Of a stretch of 64,000 bases of DNA, positions 17,309-44,300 are shown piece by piece. How positions within the stretch are numbered: the first letter of the stretch is position 1; every line of letters begins with the position of its first letter. The DNA lies in the NCBI GenBank assembly GCA_029582155.1, contig CM055895.1:15614787-15678786 (forward strand). The letters run 5' to 3'. The stretch is from Panopea generosa. Lineage: Eukaryota; Mollusca; Bivalvia; Adapedonta; Hiatellidae. Made by a program: the position numbers and the translations under genes. The notes beneath the pieces were generated by a model. It saw nothing but the letters and a program-made list of their open reading frames with translations. It was not told where the DNA came from and ran no database searches.

Positions 17309-17694
17309 TTATTTCTGGTTATGTTGACCTCGTTGATAGCCACCACTATGTCCCTGGTTCCTATCTTGCTGTAAAATCATCACAGGAGAATTCCTCTGTT
17401 GAGGGGAACCAGAACCATGCATAGTTGTGTTCATGTATGAATAGCCTCCACGTTGGTTCCCTGCATTATGGTTCTGAAACCCATACTGGTTTCTCTGAGT
17501 AGCATTCACATATATGGGACCTTTATTGTAATGTCCTGAATTTCGACCCTGACCTCGTCTATGCCGGTTACCATTTGGAAAACCTCCCCAAGAACTATAA
17601 CCATACCTTTCATTATATGCCTGACCATCTCCATAGCAATCCTGTGGATACTGACCATCACTCTCACAATACTGGTCCTGACCTTCAAACTGAC
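17309..17694 (-). CDS. YTHDC2: YTHDC2 exon 31: terminal exon, Q/G/N/Y-rich tail and stop
   Basis: The acceptor TTTTTAAG precedes a phase-1 start, so the final base of exon 30 plus GT gives Gly. It encodes 128 residues and then TAA at 17,309-17,311. Composition is strongly biased to Gly, Gln, Asn, Tyr and Arg (for example GQFEGQDQY, SSWGGFPNGNRHRRGQG, NQRGGYSYMN, GGYQRGQHNQK). This resembles a disordered, prion-like RNA-binding tail. Human YTHDC2 ends shortly after the YTH domain and lacks it. Only one copy of this exon exists. Confidence 0.85.
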
Positions 17695-20600
17695 CTTAAA
17701 AATAGAAATAGATTTTTTTTGTTTAAATTATCTTCCCTTTAATAGCAGACAGGTGAACAGTTTCTTCTATATTATATGTGTCTTCATATTTAAAAGCTTT
17801 AAATTTTGTTGATGAGAATTAAATTTAATTTAATAAAAAAAAATGCACATGTCCTGTCTTTGACCCTTTCAGAAGCCTTATTATTGAGAAGAGGGCAGGG
17901 CTGCATTCAGTTTGGTTAAACATTTGCTAATGTAAGCTAACATATTTTCCTGAACACTGGCTCGATCTCATATAAGCAAGCAGTTGTGAAAAATTTAGGA
18001 AACCAGGTCAATGGTGCTGAGCACAGAAGAGTTATGTAGCACAGTTCCCAACTTTGCATATGTACTTCTTTTTTCTAAGTGTGACTTAAAATGACCTATA
18101 CACAAGTTAAAGGTCTGAAAATTCTTACCCGAGTCATGGTACTGTGTATTATCAGCAAATCGTCTGTTCTGTGTATGGTTGTACTGCTTTCTGCCTAGAG
18201 GTTCATTGTATCTGTCATTCCATCTCCCTCCAGGAGCACCTGAGGAGGTTTGAGCGGAGCTGTTGTCTGCGGAATCGTCCCACAAATCAACTAACGCCTT
18301 TCCTACAAATGGTTCAACTTCCTGAAAGTAGGCAAAGCAACAGCTGGTAACTTTTGATGTAGTGCAACTACAGTAGCTTACATCATCTTGCTGATTAAGT
18401 GGAATATATATAGAAACTTAAACTGTACACTCTTTTGGGTATTGGAAAATTTTTTCATAATTTGTTTACAGTATTTGCATCCAGTTTTATTAGTAATGAC
18501 ATGTTTGACCAGCCTACTGCAACATGTCCTAACCAACATCCCGACACAGAGCTAACCAATATCCCAGCACAGAGCTTACCAATATCTCAGCACAGAGCTA
18601 ACCAATATACCAGTACAGAGCCAACCAATATACCAGCACAAAGCTAACCAATACCCCAACACAGAGCTAACCATTATTCCAGCACAGAGCTAACCCATAT
18701 CCCAGCACAGAGCTAACCCATATCCCAGCACAGAGCTAACCCATATCCCAGCACAGAGCTAACCCATATCCCAGCACAGAGCTAACCCATATCCCAGCAC
18801 AGAGCTAACCAATACCCCAGCACAGAGCTAACCAATACCCCAGCACAGAGCAAACCAATATCCCAGCACAGAGCTAACTAATACCCCAGCACAGAGCTAA
18901 CCAACAGACCAGCACAGAGGTAACCAATATCCCAGCACAGAGCTAACCAATATACCAGCACAGAGGTAACCAATACCCCAGTACAGAGCTAATCCATATC
19001 CCAGCAGAGCTAACCAATATCCCAGCACAGAGCTAACCAATACCCCAGCACAGAGCAAACCAATATCCCAGCACAGAGCTAACTAATACCCCAGCACAGA
19101 GACCAACAGACCAGCACAGAGGTAACTAATACCCCAGTACAGAGCTAACCAATATACCAGCACAGAGGTAACCAATATCCCAGCACAGAGCTAATCCATA
19201 TCCCAGCAGAGCTAACCAATATCCCAGCACAGAGCTAATCCATATCCCAGCAGAGCTAACCAATATCCCAGCATATAGCTTAAAATCCATCTACACCTGT
19301 GGGTAGTAGGCGACATGTCCTAACCAATTTCCCAGCACAGAGCAAAAAATGCATATGTACCCCTAGGTAGTAGATAAACAAAACAAGAGCTGTTGGAGGG
19401 ACAGCGTGCTTGACTATTTCCATGCTTTTTAAAATAACAGCTTTTTCAGACAATAAGTACCATATAGAAGACAATTAAAAGTCAGGGGTTGTAAAATTAA
19501 ACTATAATTATTGCTTATCTGTTAAAAATATATTAGCAAAGTAATTCACCAACTATTTTCATGTTCATTATCAACAGTTGTGATTTTTTGAAAACAACAA
19601 AGTGAATGGATGGCTCGTATTGCCTTAATATTATTTAATTCAGTATGACATATAGGCCTATGCACTAACTTCACCTCAGAGGGCATTATATCAATACCAA
19701 TTCATAAAATTGGTCTATAGTTGAAATAATCATGTATCAGCATGCACAGTTTATCACAGCTGGATACCCTTTCATGAAAATGAAGAAAATAAATCTAAAA
19801 AAAAAAATAACGATTAAACTTTACAAAAAAGAACAAAAGATTAAATAATAATAAAAAAAAAGTGAAATTGTTTACCCCTCAGAGCACACAAAAAAAAAAC
19901 ATTTACAGAATATTAAACTTTCATGAAAATGAAAAATATAAATCTTAAAAAAAAAAATATTAAAAATAATTAAATCTGAGTTTCAGGCATTCAACTTTGG
20001 TTTTACGTTTCCTCTAAATAACATTATGTAAAAATTTTACCCCTTAGGGCGGGCCAATTTTACCCCCACGGTCATGGTTTTGAACAAATTTGAGAGGACC
20101 ACAAACTGACCCTACTTGTCAAACATCTAAGCTCAAGGCCTTGTACTAAAATCTTTAACCTGCTAAAAACAACATTTCTAAGTCTATAAGGGAAATAATT
20201 CTACTAAAATGCAATCAAGAGTTATAGTTCTTATCTCTATGAGTTTCCTGCAGGATGTTGAACACACATGTGAAGTTCCATTCATGTCCAATGATAGGAT
20301 GATGAAATAAGTACCAAATCAAAAACTTTTACTTCTAAAAATCTCCAACCAAAAGTCCAAAAGGGTCATAACTCTGTAAATATGCAACCCAGAGTTTCTT
20401 ATCTCTGTGCGTTCTATTGATGATAACGAACACACATGTGAAGTTTCATTCATATCGTATGAGTGGTTGCATAGATATTTTACCTGATAAAAAACTAAAA
20501 CCTATAAAATTCAGTCCAAAAAGGGTCATAACTCTGCCAAAATGCAACCATGAGTTATGGTTCTAGTCTCTGTGCGTTATATTGATGATGTTCAACACAT

Positions 20601-23600
20601 GTGAAGTTTCATTCATATCGTATGAGTGGTTGCATAGATATTTTACCTGATAAAAAACTCAAACCTATAAAATTCAGTCCAAAAAGGGTCATAACTCTGC
20701 CAAAATGCAACCATGAGTTATGGTTCTAGTCTCTGTGAGTTACATTGATGATGTTCAACACATGTGAAGTTTCATTCATATCGTATGAGTGGTTGCATAG
20801 ATATTTTACCTGATAAAAAACTCAAACCTATAAAATTCAGTCCAAAAAGGGTCATAACTCTGCCAAAATGCAACCATGAGTTATGGTTCTAGTCTCTGTG
20901 AGTTACATTGATGATGTTCAACACATGTGAAGTTTCATTCATATAAAATGAGTGGTTGCATAGATAATTTTTTATCTTTCCTGATAAAAAACGTTAACCT
21001 GAAATATTTAGTCCAAAAAGGGCTATAACTATGCCAAACTGCAACCACGAGTTATGGTTTTTGTGTCTGTGTGTTCCATTGATGATGCTGAACAAACATG
21101 TGAATTTTGATTCATATTGAACTATTGGTTGTGTAGATATTTTACCTGATAAAAAAATTTAACCTGAAAACTTAAGTCCAACAATAGTTGTCAGAAGACC
21201 AACAAAACTCTCCTCTGGGTGTGTAAGTCCAAAAAGGGACTGTGCCAAAATGCATCCAGAGTTACGGTTCTTGTCTGTGTGTGTTTCATTGATGATGGTG
21301 AAGACACATGCAAAGTTTCATTCACATCCAATGAGTGGTTGCAAAGATATCTTAAACTTAAACGCAAAAGTTTAAGCTGGGTGTCTACAGACAACGCCGA
21401 CGCCGCTGGGGTCATGACAATAGCTCTCCTTGGACTTTGTCCCAGCGAGCTAAAAAGGGCCATAGCTCTGCCAAAATGCAACCCAGAGTTATGGTTCTTA
21501 TGTCTGTGAGTTCCATTGATGATGCTTAACACACATGGGAAGTTTCATTCATATCAAATGAGTGGTTGCATAGATATCTTACCTTATAAAAAACTTTAAT
21601 CTGAAAAACCAACGCCGACGCCCGGGCGAGTACAATAGCCCCCCTATTCTATGAATAGTCTAGCTAAAAACATACAATGTCAATGAAGATTTCTGTTAAA
21701 TGAGAAGTGACTACTTCTTTTTGTTTGGTATGCATACACATGAAAAACTGGGATGTCTGCTTAACAGAAATTTAAACTCTATCACATGAGAAATGTGTGA
21801 GAGGAGCAGACTGATAGATATACACATATCTTCTTTATCTTGATAATTATCCTCTTCATGTCCACGGTCCAGTCCAGTTATAGAGCATTAGACCCAGGAT
21901 TGGGGGATTGTGGGTACGATCCTCCACCACGGCTATGTGGTGTCCTTGAGCAAGACATTTTTTTCTGCATATTCTTAGCACGGGTCCTACCCAGGAAGAC
22001 TTCAAACAAGATTTGTCTAATAAGTTATAACTTATTCACAATTGACGTAAAATAAATACATGTGTTTTAAACAAAACAATTGAATTGCATGAAAGCTGAA
22101 CGAAGAGCTAGCTTCACAAGGTATGTTGTAATGGACAGACAGATGGAGACTAGAATACAGACCAACATGTAACAGAAGTAACGTCATACCTGGCCATCTC
22201 GGCTGATCTGTACCCTCTTATTCTCGTTCCACGGGTTGAGTAAATGATGAGTGGTCTGGAACTGGATGTTACCCCTGGAAACATGGCACACCAGTGTAAC
22301 ATACATGTACATATCATGTCTAATATGTATTTATCACAGAAGTTATGGTGCAGGAGTGTAATAAACCATTCACATACATGTATCTTTTATATCAACCTAG
22401 TGCCCGACCTTACAAGTAATGTTGATTTGTCATGGTAAAACAATGTTATTTTGAGACATTGAGTCATACGATGACTGACGAAAACTAGTTTGCACCTTAT
22501 TTCTTGTTTCTTACGATCTGAAAATTAAAACTGTAAATGTATCAGTATCCTGAGTTACATGTATGTGAATCTTACATTCATGTGCATTTATCATTTCATT
22601 TATTAAACAAATTGGCAAAAATGTTATGATGCTTGACAGAGCCTCGTTTAATATATTTTTGCTAACTTGTTCAATAAATTCAATAATAAATGAACACACT
22701 GTAAGATCCTCTGTATGTCATATTACATAAATGTGATAACCTAAAATCAAATAGTCCCCAACCAAAAATGATAAATCTTAAAGCATGTTCCTGAAAGTAT
22801 CTGAATACCGTAAGAAAATGATTATTTCCCAAACTTTAATTGTACTGCATTAAAACTGTAGGAGGAGATTGCTGCTGACAATTAAGAGACACTACATATG
22901 TATACATATATATACATATATAGATATAGAGTAAATATAAACAAGGGGCATAACTCCTGAAATAATAGTCAAATCCGATGTGATAATAAATGCATGTATA
23001 CACTTCAAGCTGATGAATGTACTTAGCTTCTATTATATTGCATCAAAACCTCAGAATGGTAAGCTGTAATGCCTGACAATCGGACAGTGATCATTTCTGT
23101 GTCCCTATGGGATTCTCTGAAAACACCGGGCAGGGTTTTCCATGATCCTCAAATTTTGCATTTTTGTCAAAACTATTTAATTAAATTACCCTTAAAGTTC
23201 TCAAATCTGTCTATAAAGTCTCATCAAATGGGGGGGGGGGGGGGGGGGGGGGGAGACAAATGACCCCCAGTGTGAGCGGGAACAAAACAGGGGACAAAAA
23301 GAAATTCAAACAGCTGTTACCATTGTAAAAAAATACCATTCACTGCTTACAACTAAGTTTCACCATATATTATCTAATTCCATATTTAATTTCAGATCAA
23401 ACATAATCAATACTGAAATACAGGTAAATGTCCAGTTTACACTTACATTTAACACATATTTTCTTTTTAATTAACAAATAAGGAAAAACTTTGTTAACAA
23501 CACACCTGGTTACCAAATCCCATCTTTTTGACATTCAGTTGTTATGATAACACATGATTCAGATAAATTATACAATCCAGGCGTGCGTTGCACAAAAAAA

Positions 23601-25794
23601 ACTTGCAACAAAAATCATCATCAATGTAAACCAGCAATTAATAATTATATAATTGAGATTCATCAAAATGAATCATTTTTTACTCAAATCATACAGAAAA
23701 TAATATATTTTCTTGATATACCATAATTTTAAACATTGACCAAAATTTGATCAAAGAATGGAGAAACTGTCAAACAGGCTTATGATGATTTTTAAGTTAT
23801 TTTGTGAAATGCAATCCAGGTCGTCATCCGATCCCAGAATTGCCCAAACAACTTGTCTCCAACAAATATAACATTTTACCTCTTAATCCAGTCTACAGAT
23901 AACACACCACCCCGGCCATTAAAGTCAGAAGATTTGTCAGTACCAATTATGGACGACATCTTTGCACAACCCTGGAAGTGGCCGCTACCACAGACAGAGA
24001 ATATCAGTACAACGGTATTCCCATCCTATAAGAAAAATTACAAATCTATGCATAACATAAAGATACAATGTATTTCATAAAATTTGATATGTTCATTATC
24101 AAGGTATCAATTTTAAACATTTGTAAAAGCATCATTTAATAATATGTGAGTTTTAAGGAGTCAATAATTCTTGCAAAAGGATATAGTCATTTTACTTAAT
24201 AAAGTGTGTTTTTTTCTAGTATAAAAATTACAGTTATATTCATTCATACTCAAAACTCCCCAAATGCCATCAGCAGCAAATCTATTGTTGATCTATGATT
24301 GATACATGTAGTTAAACTTTTGGTGTCTTACCCGGAAAGCTCTGTTGAGTTTCTTTTCATTACTCTTTGAGGTAGCCCAAGCCCCCTTACTGACAGACAT
24401 ATCAATAATCTTCTGACTACTACATTTCATAATGAAATATCGACATGGTCCTGTAACTGCTGAGCCTGGGTTGTTGGCCCGTCCACCGGAGTGGTACCCG
24501 CCAAACTGGTGACTGTCATGCGGTGACCCAGCACTGCTTGATGGACTATTAGTCAGAGAACCACCCTCAGACATTGTTAGTTCTGCAAAATATTTAAAAT
24601 ATTCTTTTTATAATTGTACATGTAGTTAAATATTTCTTTCATATCAAATCAAAATTGAAAGATCTTTTAGCTTTTCAATTTAATTTTTCACAATATTTTA
24701 AAACAATGCTGCATGAAGACAGTTCAGGTCAACTATTTTTTTTGTTTGTAAAATAAAAACAATAATAAACCATGCATGTAGAAGATGAATACAAATAGGA
24801 AAACATACATGTATATGTAGGTATCTGTAAAATGGGGTATAGCCATAAATAATATACACTCCAATGAGTTAAAAATAAGCCATCTAAATGAAGAATACTA
24901 TTTCATGCTTCATACAACACTTCTCATGCTTCATACATCCCATCTTATGCTTCATACAATCCATTTCATGCTTCATACATTCCATTTCATGCTTCTTACA
25001 ACCCTTCTCATGCTTCATACATCCCATCTAATGCTTCATACATCCCATCTTATGCTTCATACAATCCATTTCATGCAAATTTTATCATCAATTACACACG
25101 AGATGCAGATTACATCATTAATACAGGAACACACGATATGCAGAACAATGAAATAGTTGCTCAACTACAAATCAGCTGTGTGCAGCCATGAAGCACTTAC
25201 AGACCGCAATCCGCTCAAGTACACCAAACGGACGCAAACGAAACGAATATCAAACGCGTTTTAAACGATATACAAACGGACTAAAAATGCGAACAAAACA
25301 ATAAACGAAACGATAAACGAAACACGGACGCAACAGGGCGAACGATCCACGAATGATACAAAACGATAATGCAAACTTTAAACGCATCAAATATTAAAGA
25401 TTCAGATATCCTCTAATATTGTCGTAGTTATATTGACAATGAAATAAATAATTAAACGAAATGATTGCTCTCTTTGTCATTTAAAATCTTTAAATTGCTA
25501 TACCTGTAACTTTAATTTATTTTCTTTGTTATAAGTTTTAATCCTGAATTATCCGTGAAAAACTTTGCCTCGGGCATCGTTTCTTTACTTGTAAAAGTGT
25601 GATAAAACAATCAGGTGATGCATGACCTGCTTACACAACTACCCCAATTAACTGATTTAATTATCTGAACACCGATTTATGTTGCTGTTATATGATTACC
25701 AATCAGGAAAAGTTTTCACACAATTTTAGAAAATCTGTTTGTTACACCAAAACCTTTCCACTTAGGGCTTTTCCAGAATTGTATATAAAAATAG

Positions 25795-25833
<39 letters not shown>

Positions 25834-28800
25834 CAAACACACGTAAAGGGTTTGTGTTTGTTTGTAACTGGATGTCTTCCAAAATGTTTGTTTTCAATAT
25901 AGGCAATTGTTAAAAAAGATTACTATTAAGCTGATAGAGTTATTAATAACTACCCATACCTAAATTTGTGTACAGAATGAAAATGCTGTCCCTTTCACTA
26001 TCACCTGGTGCCAATGTCCGATGACGTCATTAGTGAAACAAACATTTTATTCACTAAGTAGGTATCTTGGAAATTTTTGATGGAAGGATATCAGAGGAAT
26101 TCTATTGGTGTAATGTACATAAAAGTCCTTGAAAGTGCCAGACGGAAGTACATGTACCAGCAATTTTAGAAGCCATGCCACAAGACATAAAACTTTTACG
26201 CTTAAAGGCATCTTTTTTATGGAAACATCCCCCATGCATTTACCGTAATGAAATAGAACGCGACGTTAAATGACGCAAGAAACTGTCAGAGTGACCACAT
26301 TGCACATTGCCATGAGGTCAAAAATAAATTGTGTCGGAGTTATAGACATAAAGCGGTGCGTTCGCTACATAAATTAAGGCATGTGTATTTGTAAATATAT
26401 TTATCTTTGCGGATTATATAAATTATTTTGTTTAATGAATTGTTATAATTGTTTTACATGACAATCTATCGAAATTCATAACTGGAATTAAAATTGGAAA
26501 AATACCTGTAAATAATGCATTATTCCTGTAAATAAAATATATACTTGCTGAAGCGTCTATACTCTGTTTCTTGCATAATAGCAGATTATACACCACTGCA
26601 GATATAAAAAACACGGACTGGTTCACATTTATTTACTATATACTTTTTCGATACAGTATTGTTAACTTTAGTATAAACTTTCAGTTGTGAAAAATTTAGG
26701 AAACCAGGTCAATGGTGCTGAGTACAGAAGAGTTTTGTAGCACAGTTCCCAACTTTGTATATGTACTTCTTTTTTCTAAGTGTGACTTAAAATGACCTAT
26801 ACACAAGTTAAAGGTCTGCAAATTCTTACCTGAGTCATGGTACTGTGTATTATCAGCAAATCTTCTTTTTTGTGTATTGTTGTACTGCTTTCTGCCTGGA
26901 GGTTCAATGTATCTGTCATTCCATCTCCCTCCAGGAGCACCTGAGGAGGTTTGATCGGAGCTGTTGTCTGAGAAACAGTCCCACAAATCAACTAACGCCT
27001 CTCCTACATATGGTTCAACTTCCTGAAAGTAGGCAAGGCAACAGCTGGTAACGTTTGATGTAGTGCAACTACAGTAGCTTACATCATCTTGCTGATTAAG
27101 TGCAATATATATAGAAACTTGAACTGTACACTCTTTTGGGTATTGGAATAATTTTTCATAATTTGTTTACAGTATTTGCATCCAGTTTTATTAGTAATGA
27201 CACGTTTGACCAGCCTACTGCAACATGTCCTAACCAATATCCCAGCACAGAGCTAACCAAAATCCCAGCACAGAGCTAACCAATAGCCCAGCACAGAGCT
27301 AACCAATACCCCAGCACAGAGCTAACCAATACACCAGCACAGAGCTAACAGATACTCCAGCACAGAGCTAACCAATACACCAGCACAGAGCTAACCAATA
27401 TCCCAGCACAGAGGTAACCAATATCCCAGCACAGAACTAACCAATATACTAGCACAGAGGTAACCAATACCCCAGCACAGAGCTAATCCATATCCCAGCA
27501 GAGCTAACCAATATCCCAGCATATAGCTTAAAATCCATCTACACCTGTGGGTAGTAGGCGACATGTCCTAACCAATATCCCAGCACAGAGCAAAAAATGC
27601 ATATGTACCCCTAGGTAGTAGATAAACAAAACAAGAGCTGTCGGAGGGACAGCGCGCTTGACTATTTCCATGCTTTTTAAAATAACAGCTTTTTCAGACA
27701 ATAAGTACCAAATAGAAGACAATTAAAAGTCAGGGGTTGTAAAATTAAACTATAATTATTGCTTATCTGTTAAAAATATATTAGCAAAGTAATTCACCAA
27801 CTATTTTCATGTTCATTATCAACAGTTGTGATTTTCTGAAAACAACAAAGTGAATGGATGGCTCGTATTGCCTTAATATTATTTAATTCAGCAAGACATA
27901 TAGGCCTATGCACTAACTTCACCTCAGAGGGCATTATATCGGTACCAATTCATGAAAAATAGATCTATAGTTGAAATAATCATGTATCAGCATGCACAGT
28001 TTATCACAGCTGGATACCCTTTCATGAAAAATATTAAAAATAATTAAATCTGAGTTTCAGGCATTCAACTTTGGTAAAAAATATTTTTTACGTTTCCCCT
28101 AAATAACATAATGTAAAAATTTTACCCCTTAAGGTGGGCCAATTTTACCCCCACGGTCATGGTTTTGAACAAATTTGGAGGACCACAAACTGACCCTACT
28201 TGTCAAACATCTAAGCTCAAGGCCTTGTACTACCAACTTTAACCTGCTAAAAACAACATTTCTAAGTCTGAGAAATGTGTGAGAGGAGCAGACTGATAGA
28301 TATACACATATCTTCTTTATCTTGATAATTATCCTCTTCATGTCCGCGGTCCAGTCCAGTTATAGAGCATTAGACCCAGGATTGGGGGATTGTGGGTATG
28401 ATCCTCCACCACGGCTATGTGGTGTCCTTGAGCAAGACATTTTATCTGCATATTCTTAGTACTGGTCCTACCAAGGAAGACTTCAAACAAGATTTGTCTA
28501 ATTAGTTAGAACTTATTCACAATTGACGTAAAATAAATACATGTGTTTTAAACAAAACAATTGAATTGCATGAAAACTGAACGAAGAGCTAGCTTCACAA
28601 GGTATGTTGTAATGGACAGACAGATGGAGACTAGAATACAGACCAACATGTAACAGAAGTAACGTCATACCTGGCCATCTCGGCTGATCTGTACCCTCTT
28701 ATTCTCGTTCCACGGGTTGAGTAAATGATGAGTGGTCTGGAACTGGATGTTACCCCTGGAAACATGGCACACCAGTGTAACATACATGTACATAACATGC

Positions 28801-31800
28801 CTAATATGTATTTATCACAGAAGTTATGGTGCAGGAGTGTAATAAACCATTCACATACATGTATCTTTTATATCAACCTAGTGCCCGACCTTACAAGTAA
28901 TGTTGATTTGTCATGGTAAAACAATGTTATTTTGAGACATTGAGTCATACGATGACTGATGAAAACTAGTTTGCACCTTATTTCTTGTTTCTTACGATCT
29001 GAAAATTAAAACTGTAAATGTATCAGTATCCTGAGTTACATGTATGTGAATCTTACATTCATGTGCATTTATCATTTCATTTATTAAACAAATTGGCAAA
29101 AATGTTATGATGCTTGACAGAGCCTCGTTTAATATATTTTTGCTAACTTGTTCAATAAATTCAATAATAAATGAACACACTGTAAGATCCTCTGTATGTC
29201 ATATTACATAAATGTGATAACCTAAAATCAAATAGTCCCCAACCAAAAATGATAAATCTTAAAGCATGTTCCTGAAAGTATCTGAATACCGTAAGAAAAT
29301 GATTATTTCCCAAACTTTAATTGTACTGCATTAAAACTGTAGGAGGAGATTGCTGCTGACAATTAAGAGACACTACATATGTATACATATATATACATAT
29401 ATAGATATAGAGTAAATATAAACAAGGGGCATAACTCCTGAAATAATAGTCAAATCCGATGTGATAATAAATGCATGTATACACTTCAAGCTGATGAATG
29501 TACTTAGCTTCTATTATATTGCATCAAAACCTCAGAATGGTAAGCTGTAATGCCTGACAATCGGACAGTGATCATTTCTGTGTCCCTATGGGATTCTCTG
29601 AAAACACCGGGCAGGGTTTTCCATGATCCTCAAATTTTGCATTTTTGTCAAAACTATTTAATTAAATTACCCTTAAAGTTCTCAAATCTGTCTATAAAGT
29701 CTCATCAAATGGGGGGGGGGGGGGGGGGGGGGGGGGAGACAAATGACCCCCAGTGTGAGCGGGAACAAAACAGGGGACAAAAAGAAATTCAAACAGCTGT
29801 TACCATTGTAAAAAAATACCATTCACTGCTTACAACTAAGTTTCACCATATATTATCTAATTCCATATTTAATTTCAGATCAAACATAATCAATACTGAA
29901 ATACAGGTAAATGTCCAGTTTACACTTACATTTAACACATATTTTCTTTTTAATTAACAAATAAGGAAAAACTTTGTTAACAACACACCTGGTTACCAAA
30001 TCCCATCTTTTTGACATTCAGTTGTTATGATAACACATGATTCAGATAAATTATACAATCCAGGCGTGCGTTGCACAAAAAAAACTTGCAACAAAAATCA
30101 TCATCAATGTAAACCAGCAATTAATAATTATATAATTGAGATTCATCAAAATGAATCATTTTTTACTCAAATCATACAGAAAATAATATATTTTCTTGAT
30201 ATACCATAATTTTAAACATTGACCAAAATTTGATCAAAGAATGGAGAAACTGTCAAATAGGCTGATGATGATTTTTAAGTTATTTTGTGAAATGCAATCC
30301 AGGTCGTCATCCGATCCCAGAATTGCCCAAACAACTTGTCTCCAACAAATATAACATTTTACCTCTTAATCCAGTCTACAGATAACACACCACCCCGGCC
30401 ATTAAAGTCAGAAGATTTGTCAGTACCAATTATGGACGACATCTTTGCACAACCCTGGAAGTGGCCGCTACCACAGACAGAGAATATCAGTACAACGGTA
30501 TTCCCATCCTATAAGAAAAATTACAAATCTATGCATAACATAAAGATACAATGTATTTCATAAAATTTGATATGTTCATTATCAAGGTATCAATTTTAAA
30601 CATTTGTAAAAGCATCATTTAATAATATGTGAGTTTTAAAGAGTCAATAATTCTTGCAAAAGGATATAGTCATTTTACTTAATAAAGTGTGTTTTTTTCT
30701 AGTATAAAAATTACAGTTATATTCATTCATACTCAAAACTCCCCAAATGCCATCAGCAGCAAATCTATTGTTGATCTATGATTGATACATGTAGTTAAAC
30801 TTTTGGTGTCTTACCTGGAAAGCTCTATTGAGTTTCTTTTCATTACTCTTTGAGGTAGCCCAAGCCCCCTTACTGACAGACATATCAATAATCTTCTGAC
30901 TACTACATTTCATAATGAAATATCGACATGGTCCTGTAACTGCTGAGCCTGGGTTGTTGGCCCGTCCACCGGAGTGGTACCCGCCAAACTGGTGACTGTC
31001 ATGCGGTGACCCAGCACTGCTTGATGGACTATTAGTCAGAGAACCACCCTCAGACATTGTTAGTTCTGCAAAATATTTAAAATATTCTTTTTATAATTGT
31101 ACATGTAGTTAAATATTTCTTTCATATCAAATCAAAATTGAAAGATCTTTTAGCTTTTCAATTTAATTTTTCACAATATTTTAAAACAATGCTGCATGAA
31201 GACAGTTCAGGTCAACTATTTTTTTTGTTTGTAAAATAAAAACAATAATAAACCATGCATGTAGAAGATGAATACAAATAGGAAAACATACATGTATATG
31301 TAGGTATCTGTAAAATGGGGTATAGCCATAAATAATATACACTCCAATGAGTTAAAAATAAGCCATCTAAATGAAGAATACTATTTCATGCTTCATACAA
31401 CACTTCTCATGCTTCATACATCCCATCTTATGCTTCATACAATCCATTTCATGCTTCATACATTCCATTTCATGCTTCTTACAACCCTTCTCATGCTTCA
31501 TACATCCCATCTAATGCTTCATACATCCCATCTTATGCTTCATACAATCCATTTCATGCAAATTTTATCATCAATTACACACGAGATGCAGATTACATCA
31601 TTAATACAGGAACACACGATATGCAGAACAATGAAATAGTTGCTCAACTACAAATCAGCTGTGTGCAGCCATGAAGCACTTACAGACCGCAATCCGCTCA
31701 AGTACACCAAACGGACGCAAACGAAACGAATATCAAACGCGTTTTAAACGATATACAAACGGACTAAAAATGCGAACAAAACAATAAACGAAACGATAAA

Positions 31801-32280
31801 CGAAACACGGACGCAACAGGGCGAACGATCCACGAATGATACAAAACGATAATGCAAACTTTAAACGCATCAAATATTAAAGATTCAGATATCCTCTAAT
31901 ATTGTCGTAGTTATATTGACAATGAAATAAATAATTAAACGAAATGATTGCTCTCTTTGTCATTTAAAATCTTTAAATTGCTATACCTGTAACTTTAATT
32001 TATTTTCTTTGTTATAAGTTTTAATCCTGAATTATCCGTGAAAAACTTTGCCTCGGGCATCGTTTCTTTACTTGTAAAAGTGTGATAAAACAATCAGGTG
32101 ATGCATGACCTGCTTACACAACTACCCCAATTAACTGATTTAATTATCTGAACACCGATTTATGTTGCTGTTATATGATTGCCAATCAGGAAAAGTTTTC
32201 ACACAATTTTAGAAAATCTGTTTGTTACACCAAAACCTTTCCACTTAGGGCTTTTCCAGAATTGTATATAAAAATAGTTC

Positions 32281-32314
<34 letters not shown>

Positions 32315-35300
32315 CAAACACACGTAAAGGGTTTGTGTTTGTTTGTAACTGGGTGTCTTCCAAAATGTTTGTTTTCAATATAGGCAATTGTTAAAAAAGA
32401 TTACTATTAAGCTGATAGAGTTATTAATAACTACCCATACCTAAATTTGTGTACAGAATGAAAATGCTGTCCCTTTCACTATCACCTGGTGCCAATGTCC
32501 GATGACGTCATTAGTGAAACAAACATTTTATTCACTAAGTAGGTATCTTGGAAATTTTTGATGGAAGGATATCAGAGGAATTCTATTGGTGTAATGTACA
32601 TAAAAGTCCTTGAAAGTGCCAGACGGAAGTACATGTACCAGCAATTTTAGAAGCCATGCCACAAGACATAAAACTTTTACGCTTAAAGGCATCTTTTTTA
32701 TGGAAACATCCCCCATGCATTTACCGTAATGAAATAGAACGCGACGTTAAATGACGCAAGAAACTGTCAGAGTGACCACATTGCACATTGCCATGAGGTC
32801 AAAAATAAATTGTGTCGGAGTTATAGACATAAAGCGGTGCGTTCGCTACATAAATTAAGGCATGTGTATTTGTAAATATATTTATCTTTGCGGATTATAT
32901 AAATTATTTTGTTTAATGAATTGTTATAATTGTTTTACATGACAATCTATCGAAATTCATAACTGGAATTAAAATTGGAAAAATACCTGTAAATAATGCA
33001 TTATTCCTGTAAATAAAATAAATACTTGCTGAAGCGTCTATACTCTGTTTCTTGCATAATAGCAGATTATACACCACTGCAGATATAAAAAACACGGACT
33101 GGTTCACATTTATTTACTATATACTTTTTCGATACAGTATTGTTAACTTTAGTATAAACTTTCAGTTGTGAAAAATTTAGGAAACCAGGTCAATGGTGCT
33201 GAGTACAGAAGAGTTTTGTAGCACAGTTCCCAACTTTGTATATGTACTTCTTTTTTCTAAGTGTGACTTAAAATGACCTATACACAAGTTAAAGGTCTGC
33301 AAATTCTTACCTGAGTCATGGTACTGTGTATTATCAGCAAATCTTCTTTTTTGTGTATTGTTGTACTGCTTTCTGCCTGGAGGTTCAATGTATCTGTCAT
33401 TCCATCTCCCTCCAGGAGCACCTGAGGAGGTTTGATCGGAGCTGTTGTCTGAGAAACAGTCCCACAAATCAACTAACGCCTCTCCTACATATGGTTCAAC
33501 TTCCTGAAAGTAGGCAAGGCAACAGCTGGTAACGTTTGATGTAGTGCAACTACAGTAGCTTACATCATCTTGCTGATTAAGTGCAATATATATAGAAACT
33601 TAAACTGTACACTCTTTTGGGTATTGGAATAATTTTTCATAATTTGTTTACAGTATTTGCATCCAGTTTTATTAGTAATGACACGTTTGACCAGCCTACT
33701 GCAACATGTCCTAACCAATATCCCAGCACAGAGCTAACCAAAATCCCAGCACAGAGCTAACCAATAGCCCAGCACAGAGCTAACCAATACACCAGCACAG
33801 AGCTAACAGATACTCCAGCACAGAGCTAACCAATACACCAGCACAGAGCTAACCAATATCCCAGCACAGAGGTAACCAATATCCCAGCACAGAACTAACC
33901 AATATACTAGCACAGAGGTAACCAATACCCCAGCACAGAGCTAATCCATATCCCAGCAGAGCTAACCAATATCCCAGCATATAGCTTAAAATCCATCTAC
34001 ACCTGTGGGTAGTAGGCGACATGTCCTAACCAATATCCCAGCACAGAGCAAAAAATGCATATGTACCCCTAGGTAGTAGATAAACAAAACAAGAGCTGTC
34101 GGAGGGACAGCGCGCTTGACTATTTCCATGCTTTTTAAAATAACAGCTTTTTCAGACAATAAGTACCAAATAGAAGACAATTAAAAGTCAGGGGTTGTAA
34201 AATTAAACTATAATTATTGCTTATCTGTTAAAAATATATTAGCAAAGTAATTCACCAACTATTTTCATGTTCATTATCAACAGTTGTGATTTTCTGAAAA
34301 CAACAAAGTGAATGGATGGCTCGTATTGCCTTAATATTATTTAATTCAGCAAGACATATAGGCCTATGCACTAACTTCACCTCAGAGGGCATTATATCGG
34401 TACCAATTCATGAAAAATAGATCTATAGTTGAAATAATCATGTATCAGCATGCACAGTTTATCACAACTGGATACCCTTTCATGAAAAATATTAAAAATA
34501 ATTAAATCTGAGTTTCAGGCATTCAACTTTGGTAAAAAATATTTTTTACGTTTCCCCTAAATAACATAATGTAAAAATTTTACCCCTTAAGGTGGGCCAA
34601 TTTTACCCCCACGGTCATGGTTTTGAACAAATTTGGAGGACCACAAACTGACCCTACTTGTCAAACATCTAAGCTCAAGGCCTTGTACTACCAACTTTAA
34701 CCTGCTAAAAACAACATTTCTAAGTCTGAGAAATGTGTGAGAGGAGCAGACTGATAGATATACACATATCTTCTTTATCTTGATAATTATCCTCTTCATG
34801 TCCGCGGTCCAGTCCAGTTATAGAGCATTAGACCCAGGATTGGGGGATTGTGGGTATGATCCTCCACCACGGCTATGTGGTGTCCTTGAGCAAGACATTT
34901 TATCTGCATATTCTTAGTACTGGTCCTACCAAGGAAGACTTCAAACAAGATTTGTCTAATTAGTTAGAACTTATTCACAATTGACGTAAAATAAATACAT
35001 GTGTTTTAAACAAAACAATTGAATTGCATGAAAACTGAACGAAGAGCTAGCTTCACAAGGTATGTTGTAATGGACAGACAGATGGAGACTAGAATACAGA
35101 CCAACATGTAACAGAAGTAACGTCATACCTGGCCATCTCGGCTGATCTGTACCCTCTTATTCTCGTTCCACGGGTTGAGTAAATGATGAGTGGTCTGGAA
35201 CTGGATGTTACGCCTGGAAACATGGCACACCAGTGTAACATACATGTACATAACATGCCTAATATGTATTTATCACAGAAGTTATGGTGCAGGAGTGTAA

Positions 35301-38300
35301 TAAACCATTCACATACATGTATCTTTTATATCAACCTAGTGCCCGACCTTACAAGTAATGTTGATTTGTCATGGTAAAACAATGTTATTTTGAGACATTG
35401 AGTCATACGATGACTGATGAAAACTAGTTTGCACCTTATTTCTTGTTTCTTACGATCTGAAAATTAAAACTGTAAATGTATCAGTATCCTGAGTTACATG
35501 TATGTGAATCTTACATTCATGTGCATTTATCATTTCATTTATTAAACAAATTGGCAAAAATGTTATGATGCTTGACAGAGCCTCGTTTAATATAATTTTG
35601 CTAACTTGTTCAATAAATTCAATAATAAATGAACACACTGTAAGATCCTCTGTATGTCATATTACATAAATGTGATAACCTAAAATCAAATAGTCCCCAA
35701 CCAAAAATGATAAATCTTAAAGCATGTTCCTGAAAGTATCTGAATACCGTAAGAAAATGATTATTTCCCAAACTTTAATTGTACTGCATTAAAACTGTAG
35801 GAGGAGATTGCTGCTGACAATTAAGAGACACTACATATGTATACATATATATACATATATAGATATAGAGTAAATATAAACAAGGGGCATAACTCCTGAA
35901 ATAATAGTCAAATCCGATGTGATAATAAATGCATGTATACACTTCAAGCTGATGAATGTACTTAGCTTCTATTATATTGCATCAAAACCTCAGAATGGTA
36001 AGCTGTAATGCCTGACAATCGGACAGTGATCATTTTCTGTGTCCCTATGGGATTCTCTGAAAACACCGGGCAGGGTTTTCCATGATCCTCAAATTTTGCA
36101 TTTTTGTCAAAACTATTTAATTAAATTACCCTTAAAGTTCTCAAATCTGTCTATAAAGTCTCATCAAATGGGGGGGGGGGGGGGGGGGGGAGACAAATGA
36201 CCCCCAGTGTGAGCGGGAACAAAACAGGGGACAAAAAGAAATTCAAACAGCTGTTACCATTGTAAAAAAATACCATTCACTGCTTACAACTAAGTTTCAC
36301 CATATATTATCTAATTCCATATTTAATTTCAGATCAAACATAATCAATACTGAAATACAGGTAAATGTCCAGTTTACACTTACATTTAACACATATTTTC
36401 TTTTTAATTAACAAATAAGGAAAAACTTTGTTAACAACACACCTGGTTACCAAATCCCATCTTTTTGACATTCAGTTGTTATAACACATGATTCAGATAA
36501 ATTATACAATCCAGGCGTGCGTTGCACAAAAAAAACTTGCAACAAAAATCATCATCAATGTAAACCAGCAATTAATAATTATATAATTGAGATTCATCAA
36601 AATGAATCATTTTTTACTCAAATCATACAGAAAATAATATATTTTCTTGATATACCATAATTTTAAACATTGACCAAAATTTGATCAAAGAATGGAGAAA
36701 CTGTCAAATAGGCTTATGATGATTTTTAAGTTATTTTGTGAAATGCAATCCAGGTCGTCATCCGATCCCAGAATTGCCCAAACAACTTGTCTCCAACAAA
36801 TATAACATTTTACCTCTTAATCCAGTCTACAGATAACACACCACCCCGGCCATTAAAGTCAGAAGATTTGTCAGTACCAATTATGGACGACATCTTTGCA
36901 CAACCCTGGAAGTGGCCGCTACCACAGACAGAGAATATCAGTACAACGGTATTCCCATCCTATAAGAAAAATTACAAATCTATGCATAACATAAAGATAC
37001 AATGTATTTCATAAAATTTGATATGTTCATTATCAAGGTATCAATTTTAAACATTTGTAAAAGCATCATTTAATAATATGTGAGTTTTAAGGAGTCAATA
37101 ATTCTTGCAAAAGGATATAGTCATTTTACTTAATAAAGTGTGTTTTTTTCTAGTATAAAAATTACAGTTATATTCATTCATACTCAAAACTCCCCAAATG
37201 CCATCAGCAGCAAATCTATTGTTGATCTATGATTGATACATGTAGTTAAACTTTTGGTGTCTTACCTGGAAAGCTCTGTTGAGTTTCTTTTCATTACTCT
37301 TTGAGGTAGCCCAAGCCCCCTTACTGACAGACATATCAATATTCTTCTGACTACTACATTTCATAATGAAATATCGACATGGTCCTGTAACTGCTGAGCC
37401 TGGGTTGTTGGCCCGTCCACCGGAGTGGTACCCGCCAAACTGGGGACTGTCATGCGGTGACCCAGCACTGCTTGATGGACTATTAGTCAGAGAACCACCC
37501 TCAGACATTGTTAGTTCTGCAAAATATTTAAAATATTCTTTTTATAATTGTACATGTAGTTAAATATTTCTTTCATATCAAATCAAAATTGAAAGATCTT
37601 TTAGCTTTTCAATTTCATTTTTCACAATATTTTAAAACAATGCTGCATGAAGACAGTTCAGGTCAACTATTTTTTTTGTTTGTAAAATAAAAACAATAAT
37701 AAACCATGCATGTAGAAGATGAATACAAATAGGAAAACATACATGTATATGTAGGTATCTGTAAAATGGGGTATAGCCATAAATAATATACACTCCAATG
37801 AGTTAAAAATAAGCCATCTAAATGAAGAATACTATTTCATGCTTCATACAACACTTCTCATGCTTCATACATCCCATCTTATGCTTCATACAATCCATTT
37901 CATGCTTCATACATTCCATTTCATGCTTCTTACAACCCTTCTCATGCTTCATACATCCCATCTCATGCTTCATACATCCCATCTTATGCTTCATACAATC
38001 CATTTCATGCAAATTTTATCATCAATTACACACGAGATGCAGATTACATCATTAATACAGGAACACACGATATGCAGAACAATGAAATAGTTGCTCAACT
38101 ACAAATCAGCTGTGTGCAGCCATGAAGCACTTACAGACCGCAATCCGCTCAAGTACACCAAACGGACGCAAACGAAACGAATATCAAACGCGTTTTAAAC
38201 GATATACAAACGGACTAAAAATGCGAACAAAACAATAAACGAAACGATAAACGAAACACGGACGCAACAGGGCGAGCGATCCACGAACGATACAAAACGA

Positions 38301-41300
38301 TAATGCAAACTTTAAACGCATCAAATATTAAAGATTCAGATATCCTCTAATATTGTCGTAGTTATATTGACAATGAAATAAATAATTAAACGAAATGATT
38401 GCTCTCTTTGTCATTTAAAATCTTTAAATTGCTATACCTGTAACTTTAATTTATTTTCTTTGTTATAAGTTTTAATCCTGAATTATCCGTGAAAAACATT
38501 GCCTCGGGCATCGTTTCTTTACTTGTAAAAGTGTGATAAAACAATCAGGTGATGCATGACCTGCTTACACAACTACCCCAATTAACTGATTTAATTATCT
38601 GAACACCGCGTTTGACACGCAAAACGAACGCATTTGAAATGCATTTTTGGTGTACTTGAATGGATTACAGTCTGTACAGCTTGTTTACAACGTGATCTGT
38701 GATCACAACTCTGTCTGGGACTGCAGTTAACAAATAAGAAAAGTGGGTTTTCCTGGATTCTCTTACTTCCTACCACATTAAGGTACCTTGAAGTCTTCAC
38801 CTGCAGCATCAAGTGTAATTTACATAAACTAGTACTGTACCTAATGTATTAATGTAATGTTTCCAAGCAATATCATTGTTTTGATAAAATAGAAACATAC
38901 TTGGAGGCAAAAAATCTTTCCTCTTTGGTGGTGTACTTGTTGCTTTCTTGGCTGAAGTGGAGAAGAATTTGTGTCTACTGTTGTCTGCGTATTCATCATG
39001 TGCCATGTTATTCCGGCCACTGCCTCCGCCCGACATACTCTCATCAGCTGGAATCAAGAACGACAACCTGACTCATATTCATATATAGTCACCACTGAGG
39101 CAAATTAACAATTTCATCCAAAGTGAGGTCATACATAAGTCTCATCAAACAGTGTATTATGTGTTTATATTAAGGTATATTGCATCAACAAAGTTATTTT
39201 AGCAAACTTCATGTTTTAAAGATACAAACAAACATAATTGTGGACAAACAGTAACAGGGACGATTGACAGTAGGCGAACATTAATAATGACAAACGTGAT
39301 ATTGGTCATATCTGTCATGTGGATATCTTTAGTAACTTTCTCAGTTTTGAACTGAACCCAAACAGGCAACATCGAATTTTTTAAATTTTTCTACTTTCAT
39401 GAATGTCTACATTGTCAAACAAGTGTTAATAACAAGGAGAGGCAAACCAAGATGTTCTTAACTGTTTAACTTGACAAGTGAACTCACACATGGGTCTGGG
39501 TCTCTGGCCAATGCCAGCTGGTTGTTGGAGCCCAAGGGCTTGTTCCTCATTGGTCAATGCATTCACAACAGCATTAACCACAGCCTGAAATATGTGGGGA
39601 ATAAGATATAGTTAGTATATGCAATATATAACTATTCACAGATGGTAATCATATATGAAGTAAAGCATGAAGAACACAAGTGGGATCATTTACTTATCTT
39701 CTAGAAGTGATCTTCGCAATTCTGAGATATGAACACATGTGCAAGATAGTTATAGTCTATATGTATATCAATAATGTTACAATAACAGTATTAAACAAAC
39801 ATAGACAAATAAACATAATATTTGAAATAATACTGTGTTCCCAGCCTAATCTGGTTTATCATTCACTTATTTTTAATAACACAATATGTAGATTCATTTA
39901 TAAGTTTCAACAAGAGGCCCAAGATGGGCCTAAGTCGCTCATCTGGTTTTACATGTCACTTCCTTGCAAATTTTGAAGAACTTATAAGTTTAGATGAGAA
40001 AAATGAAAATTATTTCCATGTAACATGAAAGTCACTCTACTGGACTCCAATGGACCATTGTCTCTAATTTCAAGCAGACTCCTGTTACTAGTATTTGACA
40101 AGACTCAAACAGCAGTATGATGATAATTATGATAATTTTATCTATTGTCCCACCAGTTTCCAATATGGGCGACGCCCCCAGAAGAGAATTAGTAATTTTA
40201 GATTTTTGGAGGATAGTGCAGAGATATAGAAATCCCTTTTGTAGCATTCCTGGTTCTTTTACATGCCCAGTGTTAAGCACAGATACATGGACTTCTAGTT
40301 TTGTTAAAGTCTCATCCCAAACACTGATTAGTGTTTTTAGTTTGAGGAGTGGGATATCAAACCTGCGACCGAGCCAGGCTCCTGGGCTTGCAGTTGAAGG
40401 GTTTACGACTGGACCATTTATCTGCTCAAATAACAGAATGTATATATAAGGTTTTATTTACCCTTGCGCTTTGAACCGGTCATTTTGGCGAGCATATACA
40501 GCAGTATCAGAAAATTCTGATTTTATGCTTTAGAAAACAGTAACTTTGCAATGGTGGGGGGTTCATGTAACTCTTCTGTCCATTAATTTTATGTTAAATA
40601 TTTACTTTAATACTTTTATTGATTTTTTATGATATCTTTTTTTAGAACATATACATATAAACTTATTGAATAGAAACAACAACAAAAAAAGTAATAATAG
40701 GAGGTAATAAAATCATTAAATAAGATTTTTGTCTTCACCATTTTATCCCTTTCTGGGACCCTGCTGGCCCTTGATGGATATTAAATACCTTTTAAAAGTC
40801 TCCGGCTCAGCTGTTATGACTCAATAATACTCCAGACCTCAAGATGATTAAAATAATTTCAAAAATAACTGATAATCAAAGAACTCAAGGTTCTGAGAGG
40901 TGCCGTTTGTTTGTTTGTTTGAATATTTAGTCATCGCTATGCCACCTTGGGCTAAAAGACGATCGGTTAACCTAGCTTCTTTTTCCTGGGATCCTGAGCT
41001 AAAAAGAAAAATGGTATTCAAAGGTGAATATTCAGTTGAATTTTGCAATTGTCTACTTATATACATATCCTACACTTATCTACCTCATCCATCTGGGACC
41101 AGGGTTTGGATGGCGACCTCATTCTACGCAGGAACAAACATTGCCACTTCTGACACAGTTTTACTGACAATGCTGCAGCCTGAATAAAATACAAGTAACA
41201 AACTGGTAACTATGGTAATTGGTAAACATCTATTACTGTTTAAAGACACAGTACAATCTTAGTGATACATACAAATATACATATTACGAAAGTTTATTCC

Positions 41301-44300
41301 AGATTAATTTTAGGTATGAGTATATTTAAAACAATTATGAAAACTTGTAAATATCTTTTAAGCTTTTTCAAGCTACATCTGACCAGTTGCAGCCATACCA
41401 AGACAGAATATAGTTCTTATATAAATATTTGGAATTTGTCTGTTTGCCACGGAATTCCAACAACCTAGAAACAATTGCATTTAAGAAATTAAATTGATTG
41501 AATATTTAGCATCATTATTATGCCATTGAGGGCTAACAGACAATCAGTTAACCTAACCACTGTTTCCTGGGATCCTGAAAGATTAACTAGTACTCTAGCA
41601 CACCCCATCTCCGCAAGTAACTGATAACTTTCCTACTTGAATCGGCTGTGAGAAAGGAATGATAATGAGACACAATGTTGTATATCAATCATCAAGGAAA
41701 CTGTTGTGGGGCGGGGATTCAAACTCACAACCCCTGGATTGATAGTCAGATGCTCTACCCACTGAGCTAATCAGATCTGGCAAATTAATTTGAGTTAACA
41801 CAACACATCAACACATGCTCAATACCTCTGCATCAACTTCGAACGAGATCCACTCCCCCAACTGTAGTGTAGAGTTCTTGTTGTCTTCTAGATCTTCATT
41901 CTCACTGTCACTAGTGTAACCATGGAAACCAGAGTTCATCTCATCTGATAAACCAAGATATAGTTAAGTCATACAAAAAGTTGAATGCTCTATGATATAT
42001 ACACAATACTTAGTCTATACTAAAAATGTTATAAAATTTGGTAGAATAGAAGATAGTTGTGGCTACAGAACTATTTATTGTCAAATAAAGTTAAAAACAA
42101 TGCATGGTATTAAATATAAAGACATAATAGATAATATATTTAAGGGGAAAGACCATATTATACTTTCAAATATATTTGTGTTTCCTGTCTCAAACTGTAA
42201 AAACTCATTTTCTAAAAATCTTCAGTTTTTACACAATCACAACAACTAAGTAGTTACCAAATGTTTCATCGGTCCCATCTTTCAAGGCATCTGGAAGGAG
42301 TTTGGCCAGTCCAGCAAATATTGCAATGGTTATTGGGGACACAAGTGTACAGCATCGTACACATGCCAGAGTGCCAGCACGAGTCATCTCCTCATAAATC
42401 AACCAATCAGATGGAACTGTGACTATGTCTTCTTTATGTGGAAGAACGGAGAAATTATGTATCACCACTTTCATCTTGCTCCTATAAAAAAGACATTAAA
42501 TAAAACAAATTTTAACAGTTGCTACAAATGAATGATATCATAATTTTTATTTTCTTGATACTATGTAATAAACGCTAGAATGAATTATTCAATCTTTTAT
42601 ATGTATGATCAAATCAGATACTTATGGGAATCGCAGAAATTTACAACATACAAGTCCAGAACTAATCACAGTTTTGATCACAAATCAATTCCAGTTCTAA
42701 TATTGGCAAAGCCCGTTAAGTGAAATAAGCTCACATACTGAGCAGAGTCTGACAATAGGCGACATATATAAGCTCTATTTTTCTTGTTTTAATCCTCACT
42801 GACTAGTATCATAACTATGAAATCTGCCATCGTCTGTCACTATCTTAAATCTTCAATTTGTATGGTCGAAATGCAAGATTAGGCGAGATGAAAAAGTATT
42901 TACCTTGTCCCATTCTGTTGATTTTCCTGTAGGTTTAAATGAGGGTAATTTACATTTTAAACTAAAGCTATCACTGAAGGTGATGAATACCCCCGAATGC
43001 CGCCATGACAGAAAAATGGTTTACCATTGTATGAAGTTTTATTAAATTATATCCAATAGTTTTAAAGTTATGCTCCAGACAAAAAAAAATACTTAATAAA
43101 AGAGAATGTTATGGATTGAGATTTTTGTATTGTTAATTTTTTTATGGTTTTGTTAAAATTAAAAACGGTCTTTTTAATTATTGTGCAATGTACAAGCTTT
43201 CATGGCAATCAATAAATGTTATACTTTTTCGAGTTATGTTGAGGGACAACAATTTTATGGATAAGAAACGAACAAGAGCACAAGGAATACAATATCGAAC
43301 CTGCTTTGCTCGAACTCCATGTATTCATCAACTTGGTTCTTTCATGAACTTTATTAAACTGTTATCACTGATGGCTTTTTATGAAGAAGACAGTTTATAA
43401 ACATTTGGCAAAGTCTTTGTATACAGTTCATTACAAATGACACTGCTATGATTTTGGAGCAATTGAAAGTTTGAACATTTATGCATTGTTTGTTAACAAA
43501 TAGCATATGTTCATTACATTTTTGACACTTGAACTCTATTATTAAGTATGGAACAGTTACTACGGTGCACTTGTGGGTTTAGTGCACTTTATAACATAGT
43601 TCTGGGTGGAACTGCCAACGACACTATGAAATGGTCACTGTAGTACGTCGGAATAATGTCTAAAGCACTGTCGACTAAATCTCTATTTACAAACAGGAGA
43701 TCCAGAATACTGCCTTTACGATGTGTAGGTTGTTGTACCAAAAGATGAAAGCCGTAATATCGAGTAAGAAACAAGGACAAAAGTTTGACAAGAAACAATT
43801 TTTTTATCAAAGGGCAATAACTCTGTAATTAGCAAGAATAAAGAGTTATGTATGAAGTTTGATGAAATTCCATCCAGTACTTTAAAAGTAATGCTCCAGA
43901 CAAGGGAAATATATCAAAGGGCAATAACTCTGTAATTAGCAAGAATAGAGTTATGTTTCTTGTACACTGCACTTCCTGTCATTATATTCTACCATTGTAT
44001 GAAGTTTGATGAAATTCCATCTAGTACTTTAACAGTAATGCTCCGGACAAGGGAAATATATCAAAGTGCAATAACTCTGTAATTAGCAAGAATAGAGTTA
44101 TGTTTCCTGTACACTGCACTTCCTCTCATTATATTCTACCATTGTATGACGTTTGATGAAATTCCATCCAGTTCTTTTCAAGTGATGCTCCGGACAAGGA
44201 AAATTGCAACGGACAGATCGACCGACAGACCGACCACAGGGTGACTCCAATATACCCCCTCAAAATTTCGTTTGTCAGGGGTATAACAAGTGAAGTCCCC

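Follow-up and report, generated by a model that had tools for sequence, protein, structure and literature searches.

The 64,000 nucleotide stretch of the Panopea generosa genome analyzed here (contig CM055895.1, positions 15,614,787–15,678,786; "the window" below) carries on its minus strand a YTHDC2-like gene whose 5′ part appears to lie outside the window. In this gene a block of four exons that encodes one whole YTH domain, the type of domain known for reading N6-methyladenosine (m6A) in RNA, is present three times in tandem. The sequence is probably best read as a loosely constrained, and probably m6A-weak, RNA-binding array that was built by tandem duplication and unequal crossing-over.

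The exons of the block (called A, B, C, and D here) are 251, 146, 85, and 193 bp long in each of the three copies, which we number in the direction of transcription. An AG acceptor and a GT donor bound every one of the 12 module exons, and none of them contains a stop codon or a frameshift. The ABCD block is 675 bp long and is in phase 1 at both of its ends, so that modules join one another through a GAA codon, and the whole chain from exon 18 through the three ABCD blocks to exon 31 is open and in frame. Both the triplication and the frame logic that an earlier note on this DNA had described are therefore upheld; its additional statement that in-frame addition or skipping is limited to the whole block does not hold, since B + C (231 bp) and D + A (444 bp) also keep the frame, and 24 of the 78 contiguous skips within the array are in frame. 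Judging from the frame and the splice sites, normal splicing would yield a single protein in which the helicase is followed by three YTH domains. A tblastn comparison of the block with the window found three copies of each exon and a single additional row at chance level (E 2.1), and thus no fourth YTH copy in the 64 kb. A chance repeat is ruled out by the kilobases of 99% identity.

The Pfam YTH family (PF04146) is matched completely by all three modules (E 7.5e-43, 2.4e-41, and 5.1e-41). When the YTH domain of copy 2, the sole query used, was compared with solved structures, the top four rows were all YTHDC2 (E 1.5e-49 to 5.2e-49), followed by CPSF30 (4.3e-31) and then YTHDC1 (6e-28 and weaker). 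Upstream of the array, joined exon pieces (an incomplete exon model) match Ank_2, Ank, Helicase_C, HA2_N, HA2_C, and OB_NTP_bind, all above the Pfam cut-offs. The resulting order of ankyrin, helicase C, HA2, OB, and then YTH, all on one strand, is shared with metazoan YTHDC2, for which PMC5832417 gives R3H, a DEAH helicase with an ankyrin insert, HA2, OB, and YTH. A YTH domain of the YTHDC2 type combined with this order supports the conclusion, which the earlier note had also reached, that this is an animal YTHDC2 gene. A bacterial HrpA or HrpB identity for the helicase piece was rejected, as its NCBIfam matches are far below the model cut-offs. Near the other end of the known exons, a 35 bp minisatellite (61455–62642) reaches the apparent acceptor of the exon that precedes the ankyrin exon, an acceptor that did not pass the acceptor filter; because the minisatellite abuts it, this splice site may sit in the last repeat unit. 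Downstream of the array the acceptor of exon 31, TTTTTAAG, precedes GTCAG, and the tail encoded by this exon has no Pfam match at E 0.01.

The mosaic middle copy and the history of the array

The whole repeat spans 17981–38608, and its copies run in register apart from indels. They are 99.2–99.3% identical over most of their length (alignments of 10374 and 3889 bp), and the alignment pieces from the 3′ part of copy 3 are 92–95% identical with minisatellite and gaps counted in. A filler of about 1 kb forms the end of units 1 and 2 and links each to the following unit; the two fillers differ from each other by three substitutions and one 2 bp indel. At E < 0.05 nothing else in the window matches the filler, upstream of copy 1 and downstream of copy 3 included, and its remaining matches there are short (E 0.05 or worse). 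A 23 bp array has 33 units in copy 3 and 12 and 13 in the other copies. Copy 3 also contains a tandem array of a 163 bp unit (20354–21181) that copies 1 and 2 lack at the corresponding place of the alignment. There are no N letters among the 64000 bases of the window.

The three units were compared column by column, with gap columns, a 276 bp minisatellite (33711–33986 in copy 1), and everything beyond 17981 excluded. Copy 2 is the odd one in four of the 70 variable columns, and these private substitutions were dropped from the change-point test. In the remaining 66 columns copy 1 is odd in 10 and copy 3 in 56, and a single change-point, before which copy 1 is the odd one and after which copy 3 is, fits 63 of the 66, a fit that was reached by none of 20000 shuffles. 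Copy 2 is a mosaic whose 5′ part resembles copy 3 and whose 3′ part resembles copy 1. Substitution differences between copies 2 and 3 amount to 0.17% in the 5′ part, and those between copies 1 and 2 to 0.19% in the 3′ part; copy 1 differs from the others by about 0.3% in the 5′ part, and copy 3 differs from the others by 3.1% in the 3′ part. The divergence of copy 3 changes sharply along its length, with 17981–21787 about 3% from 26682–28269 and 33163–34727, and its 5′ part about 0.3% from copy 1; conversion of the 5′ part, or exchange of the 3′ part with a diverged allele, would produce such a step from 0.3% to 3.1%.

It is generally known that symmetrical exon blocks can be duplicated in tandem within a gene. 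Here, the mosaic and the shared junctions suggest that the four exons encoding a whole YTH domain, bounded by introns, would first have been duplicated in tandem, and that unequal crossing-over would then have taken two copies to three, recently as judged by divergence. This is the simplest history and the best reading of the sequence, and a mosaic middle unit, such as the product of an unequal crossover would have, is present. Like symmetrical exon-block duplications generally, the array consists of an intron-bounded, frame-keeping block with its copies in register; the principle is the same, and the unusual part is the domain concerned. It is very probable that at least two of the modules are real, and it is likely, though with less assurance, that all three lie on one chromosome.

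The m6A pocket and constraint on the copies

Residues of the m6A pocket were read from a MAFFT alignment with human YTHDC2 and YTHDC1, and their roles were taken from PMC8016981 and PMC6112328. According to the former, the YTHDC1 pocket is formed by W377, W428, and L439 with hydrogen bonds from S378, N363, and N367, and the YTHDC2 cage by W1310, W1360, and L1365; the YTHDC1 change N367D abolishes binding, and YTHDF1, which has Asp at that position, binds about ten times more weakly (PMC8016981). The third cage residue in readers is Trp, Tyr, or Leu, and the non-reader Mmi1 has Ala at the N367 position (PMC6112328).

Compared with the YTHDC1 and YTHDC2 reader domains, all three P. generosa domains keep the first cage Trp (W377/W1310) as well as R475/R1401 and K361/K1294, and they differ at other pocket positions. 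The second cage Trp, W1360, is replaced by Phe in every copy, next to a loop shortened by two residues. The third cage residue, L1365 (YTHDC1 L439), is Arg in all three, directly before a GGV anchor. The W1360 and L1365 positions flank the shortened loop, and each adjoins an ungapped anchor; YTHDC1 W428 is opposite a gap in the alignment, and its equivalence to W1360 is that given by PMC8016981. S1311 is Ala in all three copies; at N1300 (YTHDC1 N367, which contacts the N1 of m6A), copy 1 keeps the Asn and the other two copies have Ile. The basic positions that contact the RNA backbone in the list of PMC11119022 (R1289, K1294, R1318, and R1401) are Arg, Lys, Lys, and Arg in each of the copies, and all three domains keep the YTH family signature.

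Since the cage is changed in every copy and the Asn in two of them, while the basic residues are kept, the array is predicted to bind RNA with little or no preference for m6A, copies 2 and 3 showing this even more than copy 1. The proposal of the earlier note that three domains give raised avidity for clustered m6A finds no support here, as two of the three cage positions are altered in every copy and the N1300 Asn is replaced in two of the three. Given pocket changes in all copies, we propose that the array would add m6A-weak or m6A-independent RNA contacts to the helicase, and that it would be tolerated since m6A reading by this protein would be under little constraint.

The copies differ at 19 exon sites, 15 of which change an amino acid and four of which are silent, and pN/pS for the whole block is 1.02. 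Exons differ more than introns do: 5/482 exon and 12/3009 intron sites differ in the 5′ part (p 0.07) and 14/193 exon and 39/1472 intron sites in the 3′ part (p 0.003), with a Mantel-Haenszel odds ratio of 2.8 for both parts combined (p 0.0002). The 14 differences of copy 3 exon D (18129–18321) from copies 1 and 2 include 11 that change an amino acid and four that lie within seven bases; 10/355 sites differ in its adjoining introns (p 0.027 for the comparison with 14/193). There is no sign of purifying selection on the copies, and relaxed constraint and diversification are both possible. The missing purifying signal agrees with the report that a pocket mutation in mouse YTHDC2 has minimal effect on fertility (PMC11119022) and with the finding that several animal lineages have sporadically lost their YTH domain (PMC5832417). 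YTHDC2 is also described as binding m6A more weakly than other YTH proteins (PMC11119022).

Alternative explanations

False duplication in the assembly, named by the earlier note as the main rival, takes two forms that fare differently. In the simple form the whole array is a false haplotype duplication and the gene has one module. Over large parts of their length the copies are indeed nearly as close as alleles, and PMC9516828, which examined older assemblies, found 4 to 16% of their sequence to be falsely duplicated. However, the joins should then repeat flank sequence, and instead both share the 1 kb filler, which the outer flanks lack; one and the same join is present twice, with the copies in register apart from indels, and copy 3 has its own 163 bp array and its much longer 23 bp array. 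The marks of false duplication listed in PMC9516828 are gaps between copies, half or lower depth, discordant read pairs, and single-copy k-mers, and a gap between the copies is absent here; by a criterion of our own, the joins are not built of single-copy flank sequence. The filler and the gap-free sequence thus disfavor a simple haplotype duplication, and we consider it very improbable. The other form fits better: two modules are real, and the third is the product of a false overlap, between modules 1 and 2 or between haplotypes, that mimics unequal crossing-over. An extra loop in the assembly graph gives just such a copy 2, near copy 3 on its 5′ side and near copy 1 on its 3′ side. Copy 2 nevertheless has four private substitutions, and the fillers differ from each other, so a loop giving the extra unit would not have copied it letter for letter and would require reads from two haplotypes or base errors; an exact assembly loop is disfavored on these grounds. 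A mis-joined third copy remains a candidate, although an unlikely one, and a mis-join inside the array would still leave at least two modules. The third copy may be mis-joined or polymorphic.

Two further alternatives concern the use that is made of the modules. The array could be a selected device, in which three YTH domains raise RNA avidity or splicing picks an Asn-type or an Ile-type module. Frame and splice sites are intact in all copies, exon differences exceed intron differences in a way that could reflect diversifying selection, and the modules differ at a pocket residue, for which reason a choice among them by splicing would matter if it occurred. A pN/pS of about 1 without a purifying signal, m6A cage positions that differ from those of human YTHDC2, and the very recent origin of the third copy as judged by divergence all speak against a selected device, and we think it doubtful. 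It is equally doubtful that the modules are present in the DNA and mostly skipped, with one YTH domain in the protein. The block is symmetrical in phase and its skipping would be silent to the reading frame, and the exon A and D donors of copy 3 are CGG/GTAAGA, with a slightly poorer exon end than the CAG/GTAAGA of the other copies; the GT-AG sites are otherwise nearly identical in sequence across the copies. A little less credible again is a three-domain array with mixed pockets, one Asn-type and two Ile-type, any of which could be included or skipped in frame, so that isoforms would shift between weak m6A reading and m6A-independent clamping of RNA. The probabilities that we attach to these alternatives overlap and need not sum to one.

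Several observations weigh against a recently expanded, m6A-weak array in YTHDC2. A mosaic copy 2 is also expected from false overlap between copies, and distances of 0.17–0.19% are small enough for alleles. Taken by itself, the helicase piece has DHX36 as its nearest match in solved structures, with no YTHDC2 chain among the best 60 of its 65 matches, so the name YTHDC2 depends on the YTH domain and on the order of the domains. Phe and Arg in the cage were judged against human YTHDC2 and could be the norm in this lineage, and the Phe could still stack on m6A. Losing the N1300 Asn need not end m6A reading, since YTHDF readers have Asp there and yet bind. Finally, the pN/pS near 1 rests on 19 differences, of which 14 are in exon D and much of that beyond the YTH match, and the excess in exons over introns could also mean diversifying selection.

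Relation to known systems and other features of the window

The full form of metazoan YTHDC2 has one C-terminal YTH domain (PMC5832417), whereas the P. generosa gene has three in tandem, together with an altered m6A cage and a low-complexity C-terminal tail. PMC5832417, a survey of 234 species, reports where the YTH domain is kept or lost and is not known to describe a form with several. A phrase search of the open-licence literature found no report of multiple YTH domains in YTHDC2, nor of two or tandem YTH domains in general; in the same literature there was no on-topic YTHDC2 work for molluscs, oysters, or bivalves, the oyster Crassostrea occurring only in the legend of a MEIOC alignment. 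Pattern searches of viral and prokaryote collections, which are not meant for animals, gave 15 and 43 matches, respectively, none of them confirmed as a relative. Fission yeast Mmi1, an m6A-independent RNA binder, is a possible functional parallel, as the residue at the N367 position is lost in both (Ala in Mmi1 according to PMC6112328, Ile in copies 2 and 3 here), but it is far more distant in sequence (E 4e-5 and weaker, compared with about 1e-49 for YTHDC2). What is new is a recent duplication of a domain block in a known gene, which is unusual through the YTH domain and its altered pocket. YTH proteins have been described with a single YTH domain (PMC5832417), and m6A reading by YTHDC2 is in doubt (PMC11119022); a naturally occurring triple-YTH gene with changed pockets would directly test the role of YTH in YTHDC2 without m6A reading. 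If the third copy is polymorphic, the array would be seen changing size within a species.

Features of the YTHDC2-like gene and its repeat array (positions in the window)
Feature	Positions	Strand	Remarks
Upstream exons: ankyrin insert, helicase C, HA2, and OB parts	39487–61471 (approximate span)	-	Exon model incomplete
Exon 18	38901–39047	-	Acceptor by scan; phase 1 junction with exon A
Repeat unit 1 with first junction filler	32158–38608	-	
Copy 1 exon A (251 bp)	37266–37516	-	Asn at N1300 position
Copy 1 exon B (146 bp)	36814–36959	-	Phe and Arg at W1360 and L1365 positions, same in all three copies
Copy 1 exon C (85 bp)	35129–35213	-	
Copy 1 exon D (193 bp)	33311–33503	-	
Junction filler 1-2 (1005 bp)	32158–33162	-	Absent from outer flanks
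Repeat unit 2 (mosaic) with second junction filler	25675–32157	-	
Copy 2 exon A (251 bp)	30815–31065	-	Ile at N1300 position
Copy 2 exon B (146 bp)	30363–30508	-	
Copy 2 exon C (85 bp)	28671–28755	-	
Copy 2 exon D (193 bp)	26830–27022	-	Identical to copy 1 exon D
Junction filler 2-3 (1007 bp)	25675–26681	-	
Repeat unit 3	17981–25674	-	3′ part about 3% diverged by substitutions; extra tandem array
Copy 3 exon A (251 bp)	24332–24582	-	Ile at YTHDC1 N367/YTHDC2 N1300 position
Copy 3 exon B (146 bp)	23880–24025	-	
Copy 3 exon C (85 bp)	22190–22274	-	
Copy 3 exon D (193 bp)	18129–18321	-	YTH end and tail; 14 differences from copies 1 and 2
Exon 31 (last coding exon), Gly/Gln/Asn/Arg-rich tail after the array	17309–17694	-	Open to TAA, stop included

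No structured RNAs or tRNAs were found at threshold in the window (ARAGORN was run with the bacterial code). Bacterial promoter patterns near the last exon (four matches, against a shuffle mean of 2.8) were set aside as irrelevant for an animal gene. A remnant that resembles a retroelement endonuclease lies at 43592–43828, below the Pfam cut-off (17.6 versus 27.4 bits). Two tandem arrays lie outside the repeat that carries the YTH modules: a 36 bp unit is repeated about 25 times at 734–1644, with an open frame of more than 300 codons on each strand, and a 5.7 kb array of nested 23, 81, and 104 bp units at 4463–10137 is GC-richer than its surroundings.

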